From positions 1 through 28,417 of IMG/VR virus record IMGVR_UViG_3300037847_000042: 28,417 bases of DNA; one strand, written 5' to 3'. Both the position numbers and the translations under genes were made by a program. Under the pieces are notes generated by a model that saw only the letters and a list, made by a program, of their open reading frames with translations, was not told the origin of the DNA and made no database searches. Positions within the stretch are counted from its first letter, which is position 1; the number at the start of each line of letters is the position of its first letter. Shown piece by piece: positions 792 to 18,657 of the stretch. The stretch comes from a virus.

Positions 792-1520
792 ATGATTATC
801 TATGACGGCCCATCACTGTTAGACGGAAAGCCGATTGTCGTTATTGCCACCAAAAAATCCGGCAATGCTAAAACCGGCGACATGGTGCAGACGTACATCC
901 TATGCCGCGACATAGACCCACGCGATGCGAACAAGCGCGGCGATGATTATTCCATCTGTGGGAATTGCAAACATCGCGGCACGGCGACCGATGACCCGAC
1001 CCGTAAACTGGCAAAAAATCGTTCATGCTATGTAAACATCGGGCAAGGCGTCTTGATTGTCTGGAAGGCGTTTCAACGTGGCGCATATGATGCTATCACC
1101 GGCCATGACAATATCGCCGCCATTGGCGCGGGTCGCATGGTACGGCTTGGCACATATGGCGACCCAAGCGCGTGTCCATCGTGGATATGGGAAAGCCTGT
1201 TATCACAAGCCGACGGTTGGACTGGATACAGCCACCAAGCCGACGTGACCGGTGCCGACTATAGGCCGGACATGGTGATGCGTTCCGCCGATACAGAACA
1301 AGAGGCGCGTGACGCATGGCAGAATGGCGAACGCACGTTCCGCGTGGTGGCGAACGTCGCCGACATTATCGCCGGACGTGAAATTCTATGCCCTGCCAGT
1401 AAAGAGGCGGGGCAGCGCGTTCAATGCCATGATTGCAAGCTATGCGCTGGCAGTAGCATTGCCGCCAAATCTATCGCCATTCCCGCACATGGTGCCGGTG
1501 CAACCCATTTCACGGCATAG
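792..1520 (+). CDS. DUF7227-like phage/plasmid protein (242 aa)
   Basis: The N-terminus MIIYDGPSLLDGKPIVVIAT, the segment CYVNIGQG...VWKAFQRGAY and the RLGTYGDPSACPSWIWE block match my memory of a widespread protein of phages and plasmids labelled DUF7227, whose function is not established. The start at 792 is favoured over an upstream in-frame ATG at 735 because AAGGAAGGAAA precedes it (774-784) and the family begins with MIIYDGP. Cysteines are clustered: C-x2-C near residue 57 with another C in SCYVN, and CPAS...CHDCKLC (C-x2-C-x2-C) near the C-terminus. This suggests a metal or Fe-S site, which is inference. It sits in the GC-richer left block. Confidence 0.8.
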   Translation: MIIYDGPSLLDGKPIVVIATKKSGNAKTGDMVQTYILCRDIDPRDANKRGDDYSICGNCKHRGTATDDPTRKLAKNRSCYVNIGQGVLIVWKAFQRGAYDAITGHDNIAAIGAGRMVRLGTYGDPSACPSWIWESLLSQADGWTGYSHQADVTGADYRPDMVMRSADTEQEARDAWQNGERTFRVVANVADIIAGREILCPASKEAGQRVQCHDCKLCAGSSIAAKSIAIPAHGAGATHFTA

Positions 1521-1611: not shown

Positions 1612-1938
1612 ATGCAAAAGACATATAAAACGGCATTCAATCGCGGCAATGCGCGTATTTGGATTGAAGGCGACACGCTGGCATTGAACGGCTTTCATCA
1701 TGGCCGACGTTTTAAGCGCGTCATGGTGGCGACCATTGGCAGCAATGCGCCAAAGCTAACATTGCAATTCGACGACGTACGCGACACTGACAAAGGCAAA
1801 GGCAAGATTGCCGGAACGGTAGCGCGTCCGATTGTCGATTTAAATGGTCGCTACGTGTCGCAATTCTTGGACGGCGCGACCCATTACGTGGCGACGTTCG
1901 ACCGTTCCGCCGACATGATCACCATTGAAAGGGCATAG
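1612..1938 (+). CDS. Hypothetical beta-rich protein (108 aa)
   Basis: The ATG at 1612 lies about 11 bases after AAGGGAA (1593-1599), a long but usable spacing. The product is basic at the N-terminus (MQKTYKTAFNRGNARIWIEG) and alternates hydrophobic strands with glycine turns, as a small beta-barrel or sandwich would. No catalytic motif is evident and I do not recognise the family. It is the last gene of the GC-richer left block; a clear terminator follows 28 bases after its stop. Confidence 0.7.
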   Translation: MQKTYKTAFNRGNARIWIEGDTLALNGFHHGRRFKRVMVATIGSNAPKLTLQFDDVRDTDKGKGKIAGTVARPIVDLNGRYVSQFLDGATHYVATFDRSADMITIERA

Positions 1939-1966
1939 ACGGCAAATTTAGTCGGGCCTAATTTGG

Positions 1967-2002
1967 TGCCTAGCTGGTGACGATACTGGCTAGGCATTTT
2001 TT
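1967..2002 (+). terminator. Rho-independent terminator of left operon
   Basis: TGCCTAGC (1967-1974) pairs perfectly with GCTAGGCA (1989-1996) around a 14-base loop and is followed by six T residues (1997-2002). It lies just after the 108-aa gene, so it most likely ends the 566-1938 transcript and insulates it from the control region to the right. Confidence 0.8.
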
Positions 2003-2025
2003 ATTGTCAGATTCCTGGTTCCTGG

Positions 2026-2041
2026 TGTCAATATTTTGACA
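2026..2041. promoter_or_regulatory. Operator-like dyad, site 1
   Basis: TGTCAATATTTTGACA is a near-perfect inverted repeat (GTCAA-N4-TTGAC). It is the end of a 27-base segment (2014-2040) repeated with one mismatch at 2156-2182. This size and symmetry are typical of sites bound by dimeric helix-turn-helix regulators; the binding protein is unknown. Confidence 0.55.
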
Positions 2042-2043
2042 GT

Positions 2044-2157
2044 GTTAGGTGTGGCTAACATTTGGTAGCAGGGCTAATAAAGTTAGACGGGGCTAACATT
2101 CTATGCAACGACTAACAATATTAGGTGGGGCTAATTGTTTTAGTATGTTAAAACACC
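2044..2157. repeat. Three tandem units of 38 bp carrying GTTAG-N6-CTAAC
   Basis: The cores GTTAG-GTGTGG-CTAAC (2044-2059), GTTAG-ACGGGG-CTAAC (2082-2097) and ATTAG-GTGGGG-CTAAT (2120-2135) start exactly 38 bases apart. Units 1 and 2 also share flanking ACATT and CTAAYAA segments; unit 3 is more diverged outside the core. A fourth core, TTTAG-TCGGGC-CTAAT, lies at 1947-1962 before the terminator. The spacer is G-rich and not symmetrical, so the units have a direction. An iteron-like or regulatory array is the simplest reading. Confidence 0.65.
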
Positions 2158-2167
2158 TGGTTCCTGG

Positions 2168-2183
2168 TGTCAATATATTGACG
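2168..2183. promoter_or_regulatory. Operator-like dyad, site 2 (perfect core)
   Basis: The core GTCAATATATTGAC is a perfect 14-base palindrome inside TGTCAATATATTGACG. It ends the second copy of the 27-base repeat (2156-2182). Its TTGACG (2178-2183) also resembles a -35 hexamer; an 18-base spacer would place CAAAAT (2202-2207) as a weak -10. Overlap of an operator with a promoter is possible but unproven. Confidence 0.55.
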
Positions 2184-2198
2184 GGTGAGGTAGGGAGG

Positions 2199-2214
2199 TG
2201 TCAAAATGTTGACG
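2199..2214. promoter_or_regulatory. Operator-like dyad, site 3
   Basis: TGTCAAAATGTTGACG keeps both half-sites GTCAA and TTGAC with a different centre. It begins 31 bases after site 2, close to three turns of DNA, so regulators at sites 2 and 3 could sit on the same face. It is 138 bases before the start of the gene at 2352. Confidence 0.5.
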
Positions 2215-2235: not shown

Positions 2236-2276
2236 GAAATAATCACGATGTTGTCACAATCGTGCCACAATCATGG
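2236..2276. promoter_or_regulatory. Recurrent upstream element, copy A
   Basis: This stretch (GAAATAATCAC...CAATCGTGCCACAATCATGGG) recurs at 2678-2718 with roughly 80% identity. It contains a tandem 11-base direct repeat, CACAATCGTGC then CACAATCATGG. A perfect -10-like TATAAT follows at 2284-2289, but no good -35 lies 16-18 bases upstream of it, which would fit an activated promoter. The next gene starts at 2352 behind a very strong Shine-Dalgarno sequence. Confidence 0.45.
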
Positions 2277-2351
2277 GTCACTCTATAATCACACCGCGAG
2301 GCAATACCGTCTCACGGTCACTGCTCAAACCCTCACGAAAGGAGGTGTCCC

Positions 2352-2639
2352 ATGAGCAATCCCATTCGCCCCATCGTACGCGCTGCGTTCCGGTGTGATG
2401 CCCTCGTCTATCAGTTTGAGGACATCGACACGTCAGACGGTGTGCTGCCGACTGGTTCGATGGCTGATGTCGCCGCTGCCTACAGTGACGATGGCCTAAT
2501 CAGGGAAGCGGAGAATTGGCTGGATATATGCCAGTGCAATCTCGAAGACCTGATGTATCAGCGTGATAGCGAAGACTATCATGTGTGGGAACGCGAAGCT
2601 AAACAGCTACGCGCATTCATCAAAAAGTGGGGAGCCTAG
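2352..2639 (+). CDS. Hypothetical early protein (95 aa)
   Basis: The ATG at 2352 is preceded by AAAGGAGGTG (2338-2347), an almost complete match to the 3' end of 16S rRNA, so high translation is expected. The product is acidic with a helical C-terminal half (REAENWLDICQCNLEDLMYQRDSEDYHVWEREAKQLRAFIKKW). I recognise no family. Its place directly after the repeat and dyad control region suggests an immediate-early role, which is inference. A perfect six-base hairpin (GGAGCC-TAGC-GGCTCC, 2631-2646) overlaps its stop codon, without a T run. Confidence 0.75.
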   Translation: MSNPIRPIVRAAFRCDALVYQFEDIDTSDGVLPTGSMADVAAAYSDDGLIREAENWLDICQCNLEDLMYQRDSEDYHVWEREAKQLRAFIKKWGA

Positions 2640-7013: not shown

Positions 7014-7942
7014 CTAGCTTCAAGGAACTGGTCAACGACTACCATAAATCCTGGGAATACAATGACTTACGGGATGAAACTAAAGTTGACTATGACTATC
7101 TGATAGGCCAAGTTCTGGACACAAAGGTGGAGGGGAAATCCCTCCGCCACCAGGATGTCAAAAAATTGACGACCAAAATGTGTAAGACTGCGTATGACAT
7201 CTGGTGTCAACGTGGTATCCATTTTGCGAACAAGACGATGGCCGTCGCACGAGTCGTATACAACCACGGCTTGCGTATGGAGATGGTCAGCAGCAACCCT
7301 TTCAATTCTGTGCGTCGTCGTACGCCCAAGAGTCGTACCACCCTGTGGGAAAAGGATCATGTCATCCAGCTGCTGGACTTTGCGTATAGTGATTTCAGCA
7401 CACGCAATCTGGGTTTGATTGCACACATGGCGTACGAATGGTGCCAGCGTGTGGGCGACATGAGATTGTTGAAGTGGAGTAACATCGACATGGAACACAA
7501 GCGTGTACACATCTTGCAATCAAAGCGTAGAGCAGAGGTATACCTGCCTATCAGTGATGATCTGTACGCAATGCTTGAACAACAGATGGAAGACTTTGGA
7601 TTCCAGGAATATGTTGCACCACGTCCGAATCCAATTCGTGGATCATACGAGCCGTACACGAAGTACAAGATGTCGAAGCATGGGCGTAGCCTGATTCGTG
7701 CAGCCGGACTGCCGGATACCCTGCGACTATCTGACCTGCGACGTACTGGCACAACAGAAATGGTGCAAGCTGGTGTCGGTATCGGACAAATCATGTCGGT
7801 TACAGGACATGCTAACCCACAATCGGTGAAGCCATACATCAAAAACACGTTCGACGCTGCAAATTATGCGTTGACAAAACGAAATAGCCGTGGTAAAAGC
7901 ACATTAGATGCCGCACAAGAAGAGGATACATACTATGTATAA
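7010..7942 (+). CDS. int: Tyrosine recombinase (integrase)
   Basis: A 310-aa site-specific recombinase that would insert and excise the phage genome. The N-terminal part (FKELVNDYHKSWEYNDL... to about residue 95) is the core-binding domain. Catalytic residues read as Arg147 (CQRVGDM), Lys172 (QSKRRAEV), Arg244 (SDLRR), His267 (TGHANPQS) and Tyr276 (VKPYIKN). The usual His three residues before the second Arg is Ser241 here. The ATG at 7010 overlaps the stop of an 18-residue peptide frame; an in-frame start at 6887 would lie inside earlier genes. No attP site was recognised. Overlaps the primase start by eight bases. Confidence 0.92.
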   Translation: MTSFKELVNDYHKSWEYNDLRDETKVDYDYLIGQVLDTKVEGKSLRHQDVKKLTTKMCKTAYDIWCQRGIHFANKTMAVARVVYNHGLRMEMVSSNPFNSVRRRTPKSRTTLWEKDHVIQLLDFAYSDFSTRNLGLIAHMAYEWCQRVGDMRLLKWSNIDMEHKRVHILQSKRRAEVYLPISDDLYAMLEQQMEDFGFQEYVAPRPNPIRGSYEPYTKYKMSKHGRSLIRAAGLPDTLRLSDLRRTGTTEMVQAGVGIGQIMSVTGHANPQSVKPYIKNTFDAANYALTKRNSRGKSTLDAAQEEDTYYV

Positions 7943-8705
7943 TACATTAGATGATACAGTAAATGATATTGTATTATATGTAGGTGAATCCAAGCGTATT
8001 AATTGTCCTGTTTGTAAGGGACATAAGACCTTTACAATTTCAAACATTGGTGGTAATGTCGTATGGAATTGTTACAAGGCATCATGTGGTGTCAGTGGGG
8101 GTAAGCGTACAGGTCTTACTCCTGCCGACATCAAGCAGATGAAGATGAAGCAGGAAGAAAAGGATATTGATTTTACATTGCCCCCATACATTGTGGCGCA
8201 TCGTAACCAGAGACATCTTGTCAAGTGGTGTGCTGAGTGGGGCATTGATATAGACGAATGTGGTCTGATGTACGACGTGAAGGAAGACCGGATTGTATTT
8301 CCTATCGTACATGATGACAAGATTGTTGACGCTACTGGTCGGGCGTTGACAAAGCGACTCCCCAAGTGGCGAAGGTATGGGTCTTCTGGTCTTCCCTATA
8401 CCTGTGGTCAGGGTGATGTCGCCGTAGTTGTTGAGGACTGTGTGAGTGCGTCAGTAGTTGGTGGTGCTAGGTTTGTCGGGGTTGCGCTGCTAGGTACGTC
8501 ATTGCTTGAGGAACAGAAGCAATATCTCACACGGTTCTCAGCAGCTATCGTAGCACTAGACCCTGACGTGCTACCCAAGACTATTGCAATGGCTAAAGAA
8601 TTGCGTGGTCACATACCGAACGTAAAGGTGTTGCGCCTTGAGAAAGATTTGAAGTATCGCAACCCGACAGACATGGATAAACTAAAACAGCTAGGAGCAA
8701 CATAA
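7935..8705 (+). CDS. DNA primase (zinc + TOPRIM)
   Basis: Makes RNA primers for replication. The N-terminal zinc finger is C24-P-V-C27 with C46 and C51 (CYKASC). The TOPRIM part has VVVEDCVSA (Glu167) and ALDPDV (Asp209, Asp211). At 256 aa it corresponds to the primase half of T7 gp4, with the helicase supplied by the next gene. The ATG at 7935 is chosen over an earlier in-frame start because the zinc domain begins soon after it. Its stop overlaps the helicase start (TAATG), so the two are translated together. Codons at both ends of the gene are noticeably AT-rich. Confidence 0.88.
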   Translation: MYNTLDDTVNDIVLYVGESKRINCPVCKGHKTFTISNIGGNVVWNCYKASCGVSGGKRTGLTPADIKQMKMKQEEKDIDFTLPPYIVAHRNQRHLVKWCAEWGIDIDECGLMYDVKEDRIVFPIVHDDKIVDATGRALTKRLPKWRRYGSSGLPYTCGQGDVAVVVEDCVSASVVGGARFVGVALLGTSLLEEQKQYLTRFSAAIVALDPDVLPKTIAMAKELRGHIPNVKVLRLEKDLKYRNPTDMDKLKQLGAT

Positions 8706-9937
8706 TGGAACTGATGGAACTATCATTAGTGCGAAGTCTGATGAACAAGGACTTCTATGACAACAATCGTGGCGCACGGTGTCCTGACAAACTGTTCAGC
8801 GCAGATGTGCGTAAGATCAAGAAGGCAGTGGACACTGCGATGGATAGGTACAATCGTACTGTTACACCGGAAGAGGTACAGGCGTTATTCATATCCAGCA
8901 ACCCATCTATCACGCCAGCGCAGCGCGACTCATATGGCAGTCTCTTCAACAAAATCCAGCGCACTGACCCATTGGGTAACGACGTGGCAGGAGAGGTGCT
9001 TTCTCGCCTGTTTCAGCAGGTTGTGGGGGCAGAGATTGCAGAGTTGGGGTTTGACTATGTGAATGGAGACAAGTCCAGTCTGGAGCCTCTACAGCAGCTT
9101 CTTGAAAAGTATGGTGATGACTTCACACCCAAGCTAAACATTGAATGGGATGACATCACTATCGATACCATCATTGCTAAGAATGATCTAGAGGCACGTT
9201 GGACATTCAACATCTCAACCCTTGCACGTAAGGTTGCGGGTGTAAATGAGGGACATCTGATTGAGATTGGCGCTAGACCAAACACAGGCAAGACATCTTT
9301 CCATGCCAGTATCATCGCTGGTCCAGGAGGATTCGCGCAGCAGGGTGCCAACTGTATTGTCTTGTGTAACGAGGAAAGCTACCATCGTGTGGCAGCACGT
9401 TACCTTACGGCAGCTACAGGTCTGACCATGTGGGACGTGAAGAACAGCCCATCTAAAGCACGTGACTTGTATCGTCCAGTATATGACAAGATTCGTATAA
9501 AGGATTCTACAGGTAGGGACATGGCATGGGTAGAAAGTGTATGTAAATCGTACAAGCCTGACATTTTGGTACTTGACATGGGAGATAAATTCGCTACTAT
9601 GTCTGGCTACTCACGTCCTGATGAAGCACTGAAAGCAAATGCTATCTATGCTAGGATGATTGCCAAGCAGTACGGTTGTGCTGTATTCTATATGTCACAG
9701 CTTAGTGCAGAGGCAGAGGGTAAAACAATTCTGAATCAAAGCATGATGGAGGGTTCACGTACAGGCAAGGCAGCAGAAGCAGACTTGATGGTACTCATTG
9801 CAAAGAACCCACAGGTTGAGGGACAGGATGAAGAGGACACAGAACGTCATCTGTGTGTCGTCAAGAATAAACTCACTGGCTGGCATGGCAGGGTACACTG
9901 TGAATTGAACTATACTGTAGGGAGATATGAAGTATGA
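8705..9937 (+). CDS. Replicative DNA helicase, DnaB-like
   Basis: A 410-aa RecA-fold helicase expected to form a ring and unwind the fork. Walker A is ARPNTGKTS with Lys196; Walker B is DILVLDMGD with Asp291. Further on are the sensor-like FYMSQLSAEAEG and MEGSRTGKAAEADLMV (the residues expected near the arginine-finger loops). The first 150 residues form a helical N-domain without a zinc finger, consistent with the separate primase gene upstream. The polymerase start overlaps its stop (ATGA). Confidence 0.9.
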   Translation: MELMELSLVRSLMNKDFYDNNRGARCPDKLFSADVRKIKKAVDTAMDRYNRTVTPEEVQALFISSNPSITPAQRDSYGSLFNKIQRTDPLGNDVAGEVLSRLFQQVVGAEIAELGFDYVNGDKSSLEPLQQLLEKYGDDFTPKLNIEWDDITIDTIIAKNDLEARWTFNISTLARKVAGVNEGHLIEIGARPNTGKTSFHASIIAGPGGFAQQGANCIVLCNEESYHRVAARYLTAATGLTMWDVKNSPSKARDLYRPVYDKIRIKDSTGRDMAWVESVCKSYKPDILVLDMGDKFATMSGYSRPDEALKANAIYARMIAKQYGCAVFYMSQLSAEAEGKTILNQSMMEGSRTGKAAEADLMVLIAKNPQVEGQDEEDTERHLCVVKNKLTGWHGRVHCELNYTVGRYEV

Positions 9938-11976
9938 AGGTAACACTTGATGTAGAAAATACTGTCACACACCGTGATGGAAAGATGCACCTTGATCCCT
10001 TTGAGCCTGAGAACTCATTGGTCATGGTTGGTATACTAACTGACCAAGGGCAGTGCCTGACGTTTCCATTTGACCACGCTGATTATCCTAATCAGGATGA
10101 CTATCACGAACGTGTGCAGATGATTCTTGACGAGGCTACTGTTCTTATATGTCACAACGCAGCATATGATCTGGTGTGGCTGTGGGAGTCCGGCTTCAAG
10201 TATGATGGGCCTGTGTTCGACACAATGCTGGCAGAGTATGTGCTACAGCGTGGGGTCAAAGAACCTCTGTCTCTTGAGGCATGTGCTGAACGCTATGATC
10301 TTGATACCAAGAAGCAGGACACATTGAAGGAGTACTTCAAGAAGGGCATGAGTGTTCGTGACATTCCATACAATGAACTCACTGACTATCTCGTGGCTGA
10401 CCTTGAAGCTACGCAACAGCTGGCAGACAGGATCAACAGGCGTCTCAACTCTGTTGAAGATAGCCAGTTACTTAGCACAGTTAATCTGACCAATCAGGTG
10501 GCAGCATGCCTTGCACGAATATATCAACGTGGATTCAGTGTGGACTCAAACGTGTTGGACGATGTTCGCCAAGAATTTGAGCAAGAGAAGGCTGACCTTC
10601 TGGACAGTTTGCAGTCTCAGGTTCGTGAACTGATGGGTGACACGCCTATCAATCTCAATAGCCCAGAGCAGTTGTCGTGGGTTGTGTATAGCCGTAAGGT
10701 CAAGGACAAAAATGTATGGTCTAACTCAATCGAACCTTATATGAAGGCCACACCCTTTAACGCATTGATCAACAGTCAGACCGAACGAGTGTATAGAACA
10801 TATGCAGAACAGTGTCCTGACTGCAAGGGTACTGGTTACATACGTAAAACAAAAAAGGATGGCACACCCTTTGCCAAACCTAACAAGTGCGTGACCTGCG
10901 CAGCAAGTGGCTTCTTGTACAAAGCTACTGACAAGGTGGCTGGCCTAAAGTTTATGCCACCAAATGCAAAGTGGGCTAGTGCTGGTGGTTTCTCTACTAG
11001 TAAGAACAATCTTGAGATTCTTGAGAGGGCTGCACGTAGCAAGGGCATGGATGATGCTGTCAAGTTTCTGTCAGACGTAAGGCGTCTGTCTGCTGTTGAC
11101 ACCTATCTCTCATCCTTTGTCGAGGGTATCAGGACTCACACGAAGTCCGATGGTAAGTTGCACGTACGTTTGTTGCAACATAGGACTGCCACAGGTCGTC
11201 TGTCTGGTGCAGACCCGAACATGCAGAACATGCCACGTGGTGGTACGTTTCCTGTCAAGAAGGTGTTCGTATCCAGATGGCATGGTGGTAAGGTATTAGA
11301 AGCAGACTTTGCACAGCTAGAGTTTAGGGCTGCTGCATATTTATCACAGGATGGAGTAGCGATAGATGAAGTATCTACTGGATTTGATGTACATGCATAT
11401 ACCAGTCAAGTTATTACTGATGCTGGTCAACCGACGAGTCGCCAAGAAGCAAAGGCGCACACGTTCGCACCTCTTTATGGCGCAACGGGCTTTGGGAGAA
11501 CGCCAGCGGAGGCAGAGTACTACACACACTTCACGGAGAAATACCAAGGCATCGCAGATTGGCATACCCGATTGGCTAAAGAGGCTCTAAACACAGAGAT
11601 GATTACTACACCCTCTGGTCGTCAGTTTAAGTTTGAAGGTGTTCGTCGTCTGGAGAGTGGTAAGATAACCAACTTTACACAGATCAAGAACTATCCTGTA
11701 CAGTCGTTTGCTACAGCAGACATTGTGCCTATCGCACTACTGCACATAGATAAACTACTTGAGGGTATGCAATCATGTGTTGTTAATACAGTACACGATA
11801 GTATCGTAATTGATGTACATCCAAGTGAAGAGAGGCAGGTAATTGACATCATTAAAAAAACTAATGACGATCTTCCTGGTTTGATTACAATGAGATGGGG
11901 TATTGTATTTAATGTTCCACTAGAACTTGAAGCAAAAATTGGTGATAATTGGCTTGACACCAAAGACGTTGTATGA
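9934..11976 (+). CDS. Family A DNA polymerase with DnaJ-like zinc insert
   Basis: 680 aa. The N-terminal 3'-5' exonuclease shows LDVENT (DxE), NAAYDLVWLW and YLVADLEA. The polymerase part shows TATGRLSGADPNMQNMP, motif A EADFAQLEFRA (Asp458), motif B RQEAKAHTFAPLYGATG and motif C VHDSIVI (His621, Asp622). Between them, at 294-322, is CPDCKGTG...CVTCAASG, a four-cysteine zinc element like the DnaJ central domain, described for phage HMO-2011. It replicates the phage genome and probably proofreads. No thioredoxin-binding insert is recognised. The stretches around motif A and the 3' end use more AT-rich codons than the rest. Confidence 0.96.
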   Translation: MKVTLDVENTVTHRDGKMHLDPFEPENSLVMVGILTDQGQCLTFPFDHADYPNQDDYHERVQMILDEATVLICHNAAYDLVWLWESGFKYDGPVFDTMLAEYVLQRGVKEPLSLEACAERYDLDTKKQDTLKEYFKKGMSVRDIPYNELTDYLVADLEATQQLADRINRRLNSVEDSQLLSTVNLTNQVAACLARIYQRGFSVDSNVLDDVRQEFEQEKADLLDSLQSQVRELMGDTPINLNSPEQLSWVVYSRKVKDKNVWSNSIEPYMKATPFNALINSQTERVYRTYAEQCPDCKGTGYIRKTKKDGTPFAKPNKCVTCAASGFLYKATDKVAGLKFMPPNAKWASAGGFSTSKNNLEILERAARSKGMDDAVKFLSDVRRLSAVDTYLSSFVEGIRTHTKSDGKLHVRLLQHRTATGRLSGADPNMQNMPRGGTFPVKKVFVSRWHGGKVLEADFAQLEFRAAAYLSQDGVAIDEVSTGFDVHAYTSQVITDAGQPTSRQEAKAHTFAPLYGATGFGRTPAEAEYYTHFTEKYQGIADWHTRLAKEALNTEMITTPSGRQFKFEGVRRLESGKITNFTQIKNYPVQSFATADIVPIALLHIDKLLEGMQSCVVNTVHDSIVIDVHPSEERQVIDIIKKTNDDLPGLITMRWGIVFNVPLELEAKIGDNWLDTKDVV

Positions 11977-12017
11977 TACAACTATGCTTCTATTTGTCAA
12001 AAAAGGAGTAACTATAT

Positions 12018-12893
12018 ATGAGTGAACTTGCAGTAATTGATGCCAACAACTATGCAGCTATGGCCCAGATGATGGGCATGGCATACGATGCAAATGGTGG
12101 CAAGAATAAAAATACTCTTGCGCGTATCAAGGTGCAGAAGAAACCAATCAAAGGTAAGGCTACTGTCGATGGCAAAACCATGACTGTCGATATTGTACCT
12201 GCTGGTTCCTACATGATTGAGAAGGATGGTAAGACTCTATATGCTGAAAGCATGAAGATTCGTATTGCCCTTCAACGCTTCATGTATCAGAAGTATGACA
12301 ACTCAGTCAACAACTACGTCAAGACTGTGATGGCAGACAACTTGGATATTGATCTGAAAGACAACTATGGTGGCTTCAACTGTGGTAAACCATCAGGTTA
12401 TATTCAAGACTTCAACAGTCTGCCGGAAGCTACAAAGGAACTGATACGTTCTATCAAACGCACTCGCGTTATTCTTGGTAAGGTTACGTTCATCGATGCA
12501 AAGGATGATAAAGGAAATCCACATGAGGTAGAGGACTACCCATTTATTTGGGACGTAGATACCAAGGAAGGCTTCAAGAATTTGGGTGAGGCTACGGCAA
12601 AACTTGCCAAGCATCAGCGTCTTTCTCTATTCCACGACATCACTGTAAGTATCGGTGAACGTGAGGGTGTAGCTAATACGTACTACGTTCCTGTTTGCGA
12701 CGTTAACCTTGATGTTTCTCACGAGATCACTGACTCTGATCAGGAACTTATGCGTGACTTTATGGCTGTAGTAGAAGCCCACAATCGTTGGGTTCTGTCT
12801 GAGTGGGAACAGAAGCACATCGAAAAGGCAACGGATGATGAAAAGGAACTCGCAGAAGAGTTTGTAGTAATCTCTGTTGACGAGGAGGAATAG
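12018..12893 (+). CDS. Probable ssDNA-binding protein (291 aa)
   Basis: AAGGAG lies upstream of the ATG. The protein begins with a flexible stretch, then LARIKVQKKPIKG, alternating strands, and IRIALQRFMYQKYDNSVNNYVKT, rich in aromatic and basic residues. It ends in a very acidic tail (EEFVVISVDEEE), the arrangement seen in phage single-strand binding proteins such as T7 gp2.5. Its place between the polymerase and the exonuclease supports the idea. I see no decisive motif, so the role is inferred from position and tail. Confidence 0.55.
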   Translation: MSELAVIDANNYAAMAQMMGMAYDANGGKNKNTLARIKVQKKPIKGKATVDGKTMTVDIVPAGSYMIEKDGKTLYAESMKIRIALQRFMYQKYDNSVNNYVKTVMADNLDIDLKDNYGGFNCGKPSGYIQDFNSLPEATKELIRSIKRTRVILGKVTFIDAKDDKGNPHEVEDYPFIWDVDTKEGFKNLGEATAKLAKHQRLSLFHDITVSIGEREGVANTYYVPVCDVNLDVSHEITDSDQELMRDFMAVVEAHNRWVLSEWEQKHIEKATDDEKELAEEFVVISVDEEE

Positions 12894-17823: not shown

Positions 17824-18184
17824 ACAGTGGATGAAGGAGAAATATATGTATGGTATAACTGCAGGAGCATACCAGATAGCTGCCTGTGATACAGCTATCT
17901 TCCCAAAAGAAAAAGCCCTTGAGTATTTAACTCTTGGGCTGACGGGAGAGGCAGGTGAAATAGCGAACAAGGTCAAGAAGTTTATACGGGATGGTGCGTC
18001 AAAAGAAGAGTACCTTGCCAAGCGTATTGAGATTGGATACGAGATTGGTGATGTGATGTGGTATTGTGCAGTACTAGCAGAAGAACTAGACATGAATCTT
18101 GGACACATTATGGAGAAAAATTTAGAGAAACTAGCTGACAGAAAGAAACGGGGCAAGCTGTCGGGTTCAGGTGATAACAGGTGA
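17801..18184 (+). CDS. mazG: MazG-like nucleotide pyrophosphohydrolase
   Basis: All-alpha NTP pyrophosphatase fold. The metal-binding set is Glu50-Ala-Gly-Glu53 (GEAGEIANKVKK) and Glu81-Ile-Gly-Asp84 (EIGDVMWY). It hydrolyses NTPs or dNTPs to monophosphates; in marine phages it has been proposed to alter host alarmone or nucleotide pools. Two starts are possible: 17801 (127 aa, GGAG about eight bases upstream) and the in-frame ATG at 17846 (112 aa, behind GAAGGAG), which would begin just before the conserved YQIAACDTAIFP. It overlaps the RMF-like gene and the next GTG start. Confidence 0.85.
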   Translation: MDLELEAKQWMKEKYMYGITAGAYQIAACDTAIFPKEKALEYLTLGLTGEAGEIANKVKKFIRDGASKEEYLAKRIEIGYEIGDVMWYCAVLAEELDMNLGHIMEKNLEKLADRKKRGKLSGSGDNR

Positions 18185-18657
18185 CGGAGGGAAAAAAGCT
18201 ATGGAAGAGAGTAAGTAGGATGGACTTAGGAAACCCTGTGATAACAGCTTTAGTAGGTTTGGTTATATTCTACGTAGGCTTGAAGACATTCTCTGGTGGC
18301 ATGAAATCTATGGGCAACATAGAACATCTTTCGTGGTTTTTGGGCAACCCGTTATACATGTTTGCAGGCGGTATCATAATGACACTGTTGTGGCAATCGT
18401 CCAGCCTGTCTACTACAGCCATCATTGCGCTGGTTGCCTCTGGTGCCTTGCCTTTACCTGCAGCTATTGCCGCAGTGCTAGGCGCAAACATAGGTACAAC
18501 AGGTACAATATGGCTGGCAGGTTTGTTTGTGTCAGACGGTATGCCTAAAGGAGATACGTTGCGTATTGCAATGGCACACACGGGTGTGAACTTGTTTATG
18601 GCAGCTACTTTGTTACCGTTTGTGTCACACATAGCACGATGGCTAGGCAGGTTCTAA
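18181..18657 (+). CDS. Half-size Na+/phosphate cotransporter-like membrane protein (158 aa)
   Basis: Residues 18-157 carry one repeat of the Na+/Pi cotransporter (NptA/SLC34-type) fold: WQSSSLSTTAII (QSSS at 72-75) and GANIGTT (101-107), the two sodium- and phosphate-binding signatures, amid about four hydrophobic segments. Full bacterial and animal transporters have two inverted repeats with a QSSS in each; here only one is present, so it would need to dimerise or pair with host subunits. It starts with GTG overlapping the MazG stop (GTGA); an ATG at 18220 would also keep the domain. It is the last rightward gene before a strong terminator. Confidence 0.8.
   Translation: MTEGKKLWKRVSRMDLGNPVITALVGLVIFYVGLKTFSGGMKSMGNIEHLSWFLGNPLYMFAGGIIMTLLWQSSSLSTTAIIALVASGALPLPAAIAAVLGANIGTTGTIWLAGLFVSDGMPKGDTLRIAMAHTGVNLFMAATLLPFVSHIARWLGRF

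Follow-up and report, generated by a model that had tools for sequence, protein, structure and literature searches.

Three dyads of the general form YGTCAA-N4-TTGACR (16 bp), here called A1 to A3, occupy an intergenic gap in the window, by which we mean the whole stretch of 28,417 nucleotides analysed, a 28.4-kb virus record from IMG/VR. Early genes (792-1938) lie on one side of the gap and the next gene block, from 2352, lies on the other (Table 1). A first-pass annotation of this DNA had placed the dyads upstream of the early genes. This holds for the block from 2352, but the sites are downstream of 792-1938, and because the gap falls between two early-gene blocks, we place the dyads inside the early region and not ahead of all early genes.

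Table 1 Features in and around the intergenic gap (window coordinates)
Feature	Position	Strand	Description
c1	792-1520	+	phrog_2554 / DUF7227 family; early gene, co-occurs with the array
g1612 (108 aa)	1612-1938	+	Predicted MraZ-like fold; candidate reader of the 19-bp repeats
Terminator-like hairpin	1965-1998	+	Closes the preceding early genes
Paired CCTGG repeat	2014-2025	+	Immediately ahead of A1
Dyad A1	2026-2041	.	TGTCAATATTTTGACA; kept in five relatives
Six 19-bp direct repeats	2044-2157	+	Between A1 and A2; last unit weak
Paired CCTGG repeat	2156-2167	+	Immediately ahead of A2
Dyad A2	2168-2183	.	TGTCAATATATTGACG; kept in five relatives
Dyad A3	2199-2214	.	TGTCAAAATGTTGACG; kept in 4/5 relatives, degenerate in G001
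Promoter-like repeat	2236-2289	+	TATAAT at 2284-2289; the repeat recurs from 2678
First gene after the array (95 aa)	2352-2639	+	No family match

Anatomy of the gap and identity of the phage

The three TGTCAA-N4-TTGAC dyads of the first-pass annotation were all recovered, and they stand far above chance: with up to one mismatch allowed, the pattern has 9 matches in the window against 0.97 expected, a number that 0 of 100 shuffles equalled. A2 contains the 14-bp perfect palindrome that had been described (GTCAATATATTGAC), its start lies the reported 31 bp from the start of A3, and the duplicated 27-bp segment is found at 2014-2040 and 2156-2182 with one mismatch between the copies. A fourth exact dyad at 7156-7171, within the integrase gene, is kept in several relatives. 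It coincides with the codons D-V-K/N-x-L-T, and we rejected it as a fourth operator since conserved codons explain it; that it is probably a coding coincidence also follows from its presence in a subgroup of phages that lack the early array.

Between A1 and A2 we observed an array of 19-bp direct repeats that was absent from the first-pass annotation. GTTAG-N6-CTAAC is present in several of the units, and the number of units differs among relatives. The 19-bp period was significant in all five phages tested (p of 0.001 or less) and falls within the iteron-type size of about 17-22 bp for tandem direct repeats. The repeat directly ahead of A1 and A2 is CCTGGTTCCTGG. GC content over 1950-2249 is 0.39-0.45, compared to about 0.5-0.58 around it.

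Farther downstream, a 42-bp sequence occurs twice (2236-2277 and 2678-2719), the copies being 83% alike and 442 bp apart, with TATAAT after the first copy. Standing ahead of two early genes, it is likely an early promoter that this phage type carries in repeated form. All dyads lie upstream of the best promoter-like site (2262-2289), with 48 bp between the end of A3 and the first hexamer of that site. Leftward promoter-like sites over A1 and A2 reach 10/12 in the window; on reading, relatives do not keep them, and they were rejected.

Similar elements were seen in unrelated viral sequences. In three contigs (L503:2730, L575:7017 and L578:476, of which the last two look like one phage family), a TGTCAA dyad is immediately preceded by a paired CCAGCT repeat that recalls CCTGGTTCCTGG in the window, and GTTAG-N6-CTAAC dyads lie near these sites. 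Tandem GTTAG-N6-CTAAC, often as GTTAGTNNNNACTAAC, was found in at least 120 viral loci (L474-L592), few of which adjoin HTH genes. None of these loci has a g1612 homologue, and GTTAG-N6-CTAAC was therefore rejected as a mark of g1612.

The window matches Puniceispirillum phage HMO-2011, to which it shows 71.9% DNA identity across 8220-12062 (primase, helicase and DNA polymerase) within a syntenic genome plan. The window carries the primase-helicase-polymerase block of HMO-2011-type phages and a polymerase with a partial DnaJ zinc motif; a CxxCxGxG-type motif was seen in the polymerase translation (9934-11976). Judged by sequence, the window is an HMO-2011-type podovirus, and because HMO-2011 has 55 kb, it represents about half of a genome of this type. 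At 18181-18657, a small Na/Pi-cotransporter-like protein ends the rightward gene block and adjoins MazG.

Conservation in relatives and recurrence in other viruses

Five relatives carry the same module (L005, L006, L008, L009 and the 53.5-kb record G001), and the conservation argument is carried by the alignment of these with the window, six related phages in all. Arm positions were invariant at 28 of 30 sites, in comparison to 102 of 205 in the surrounding sequence and 5 of 12 in the spacers (Fisher p = 2e-6), and the distance from A1 to A2 ranged from 135 to 218 bp among relatives. The invariant arms, their contrast with the surroundings and the variable distances therefore support selection on the paired arms. 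The array co-occurs with the genes at 792-1520 and 1612-1938 and not with integrase type, being retained where the integrase is only 59-60% alike (L287, L006).

When viral contigs were scanned for pairs of dyads separated by 10-40 bp, the tandem dyad was found in at least 120 loci, compared to 3 for a control palindrome of the same composition. By a simple grouping rule on DNA similarity, these loci form at least 63 independent groups. The array lies outside ORFs of 90 aa or more in 58 of the 63, and where both flanking genes could be judged, they were divergent in 18 groups, on one strand in 26 and convergent in 4. Spacings between neighbouring dyads fall near multiples of 10.5-10.9 bp, in helical phase, in a test that is affected by the imposed 10-40 bp range. 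The motif did not behave as background in array-bearing viral records: in most of the longer ones examined, the dyads are gathered in a single cluster, and a reversed control pattern was almost absent. Of the 63 groups, 6 have a member of the 792-1520 family close to the array, versus 0 of 75 control groups. Clustering, Pfam and PHROGs revealed no regulator family common to the viral TGTCAA-array loci, and we found no description of the dyad motif in phages in the literature.

Bacterial genomes showed this tandem pattern at 65 loci, and 11 of 62 neighbouring proteins there are MarR-family regulators. No MarR gene was found beside the viral arrays examined. In roseophage CRP-403, a gene annotated as a MarR-family regulator directly precedes the integrase (L274:1686-2027).

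Candidate DNA-binding proteins and competing explanations

The AlphaFold2 model of the g1612 product (pLDDT 90.6) has MraZ structures as its top five structural matches (Z 6.5 to 7.3 over 90 of 108 residues, all below Z 8), followed by an unrelated match at Z 2.6. Foldseek gave nothing significant for the model, g1612 has no Pfam or other family match, and a profile search of PDB sequences found no MraZ. Because Foldseek was not significant and sequence support is absent, we describe this as a fold resemblance of middling strength and not as MraZ membership. MraZ itself binds as an octamer to direct repeats arranged in tandem (PMC5282649), and g1612 thus fits the 19-bp repeats better than the dyads. 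On the predicted structure, it is the best local candidate reader, probably for the 19-bp repeats.

An unrelated virus (L177) has a g1612 homologue, the 792-1520 family and CCTGGTGTCAA dyads together. Beyond the window's group, this is the only one of the tandem-dyad loci examined to hold a homologue, and g1612 was rejected as a general dyad reader. In G001, the homologue is spread over three frames (L281:1645-1964) and the 792-1520 homologue also looks broken, which may reflect real decay or sequence errors; two dyads are retained there despite the split g1612. In another phage group, repeated AACGTACT / AGTACGTT boxes about 10-12 bp apart precede the g1612 homologue (L024:7720-8000, L029:3450-3700), and these are possibly binding sites of the homologue itself.

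We tentatively interpret 1965-2289 as a composite control region for the early block from 2352, giving this slightly less than an even chance, and the sequence evidence points to a region that is most likely bound by protein and controls early genes. A dimeric DNA-binding protein would occupy each dyad, the 19-bp repeats would be covered by another protein, for which the g1612 product with its MraZ-like fold, as an oligomer, is the most likely candidate, and the complex, upstream of the promoter-like sequence, would activate or silence the downstream early genes. The anatomy, conservation, periodicity and recurrence of the array are the part of this explanation that can be read directly from the sequences. 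It is supported because the arms are almost invariant (28/30) while inter-site distances vary, because the 19-bp periodicity persists with a variable number of units, and because the array goes with c1 and g1612 and not with the integrase. Further support comes from the at least 63 viral groups that carry the tandem dyad, 58 of them outside long ORFs and with helical spacing, and from the control palindrome, with its 3 loci against at least 120. The explanation is weakened because the MraZ likeness comes from a predicted structure, stays below Z 8 and has no sequence support, because g1612 is split in G001 while two dyads remain, and because the 19-bp repeats also suit a replication origin.

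Such an origin is the main rival, and we regard it as unlikely. The 19-bp repeats would then be iterons for an initiator and the dyads auxiliary sites, with the adjoining terminator and promoter restraining transcription or priming replication. Tandem 19-bp repeats with internal dyads and a variable copy number would suit this arrangement, as would a GC of 0.39-0.44 over the array, lower than around it, but the same dyads occur in other viruses without 19-bp repeats and no initiator gene was recognised when small proteins from the window and G001 were scanned together. Among the first 25 families listed for these proteins were an integrase, T5orf172, pyrimidine-dimer glycosylase, lysozyme, MazG, a Na/Pi-cotransporter-like protein and a terminase small subunit. 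Repressors, including helix-turn-helix repressors, were likewise missing from the families listed, in agreement with the first-pass annotation, which had recognised no repressor gene in the window; the same is true of G001.

This bears on the earlier proposal that the dyads are operator-like sites suited to a lysogeny-type repressor. Their reading as operator-like protein sites is supported by arm conservation and by recurrence in many viruses, but the lysogeny repressor is not. A phage repressor of an unrecognised family could bind the dyads and silence the early genes in a lysogen, and the tyrosine integrase and the conserved tandem dyads would be in line with this. HMO-2011-type phages can be temperate, and CRP-3, of the same type, integrates into its host (PMC6918029). 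However, no repressor domain was found among the families listed for the window and G001, so that of the marks of an operator region the conserved tandem dyads are present and a recognised cognate repressor gene was not found. In addition, array and integrase types are uncoupled, the array being kept with integrases 59-60% alike, the parts of temperate CRP-3 examined have no such dyads, and the sites lie upstream of the best promoter-like site and do not overlap it. We consider lysogeny operators quite improbable.

The dyads might instead be bound by a regulator of the host, such as one of MarR type, through which the phage would set the timing of its early genes. The MarR-family genes that adjoin the same tandem dyad in bacteria (11 of 62 neighbouring proteins) and the lack of a regulator common to the viral arrays would agree with this, but the bacterial cases come from many scattered phyla, unrelated regulators may be involved, and we judge the chance of such a host factor to be small. 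Even taken together, -35 boxes, IHF sites, integrase arm sites, a packaging site and RNA leader hairpins have a low probability. TTGACA equals the -35 consensus, and across 560 half-sites there was no enrichment of a TATAAT-like -10 at spacers of 16-18, by which the arms were rejected as -35 boxes. TCAA-N4-TTG resembles the IHF core; IHF sites (WATCAANNNNTTR) have A before TCAA, and the G found there in 18 of 18 aligned sites does not fit them. Integrase arm sites are disfavoured because the array is unchanged with different integrases. Terminase genes often lie near such arrays in other viruses, as would suit a packaging site. In this phage type, however, the terminase lies about 8 kb from the array, and a packaging site was rejected. 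The dyads do fold as RNA, but any palindrome folds and there was no Rfam match. Compared with a control region, the -35-box, IHF, integrase-arm and RNA-hairpin readings agree less well with the observations.

Beyond the window, YGTCAA-N4-TTGACR arrays could be a cis-element common to many unrelated, mostly uncultured viruses, usually forming one cluster beside early or terminase genes. They would be read by one conserved factor that is not obviously phage-encoded, the MraZ-like protein on 19-bp repeats having been added in the window's lineage. We offer this broader idea as doubtful.

Relation to known systems

HMO-2011-type phages are an abundant marine group, and the literature we found does not describe their early-gene and lysogeny control. 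The region offers a compact target for testing, consisting of a 300-bp fragment and the 108-aa protein encoded beside it. That at least 63 virus groups carry the same dyad is a hint of a regulatory code common to uncultured viruses, through which the host or phage regulators that act on the dyads could be found.

The isolates HMO-2011, CRP-1, CRP-345 and CRP-3 share the genome plan of the window, but no TGTCAA array was found in those parts of them that were scanned. Repeated dyads of another kind stand in the early regions of HMO-2011 and CRP-1, and TGTCCAACGTTGGACA is present in CRP-1 and also in CRP-345. The operators of bacterial MarR-family regulators, ATGTCAA-N4-TTGACAT, have the same dyad letters and spacer as the window; they adjoin MarR genes in bacteria, unlike the viral arrays examined. 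MraZ with its direct-repeat boxes resembles g1612 in predicted fold (90 of 108 residues) and in the adjacent tandem direct repeats. The MraZ boxes, (AAAGTGKN3)3, have a period of roughly 10 bp (PMC5282649), compared to 19 bp in the window, and MraZ belongs to a cell-division context, whereas g1612 is in a phage context and has no MraZ sequence match.

Operator or iteron control regions of phages and plasmids, such as lambda-type operators and iteron origins, are like the array in their tandem dyads, helical phasing and adjoining promoter, and in direct repeats that measure about 19 bp and have dyad character. The array differs from them in having no recognised repressor or initiator gene, in the position of its sites upstream of the best promoter-like site and not over it, and in combining dyads and iteron-like repeats in one block.
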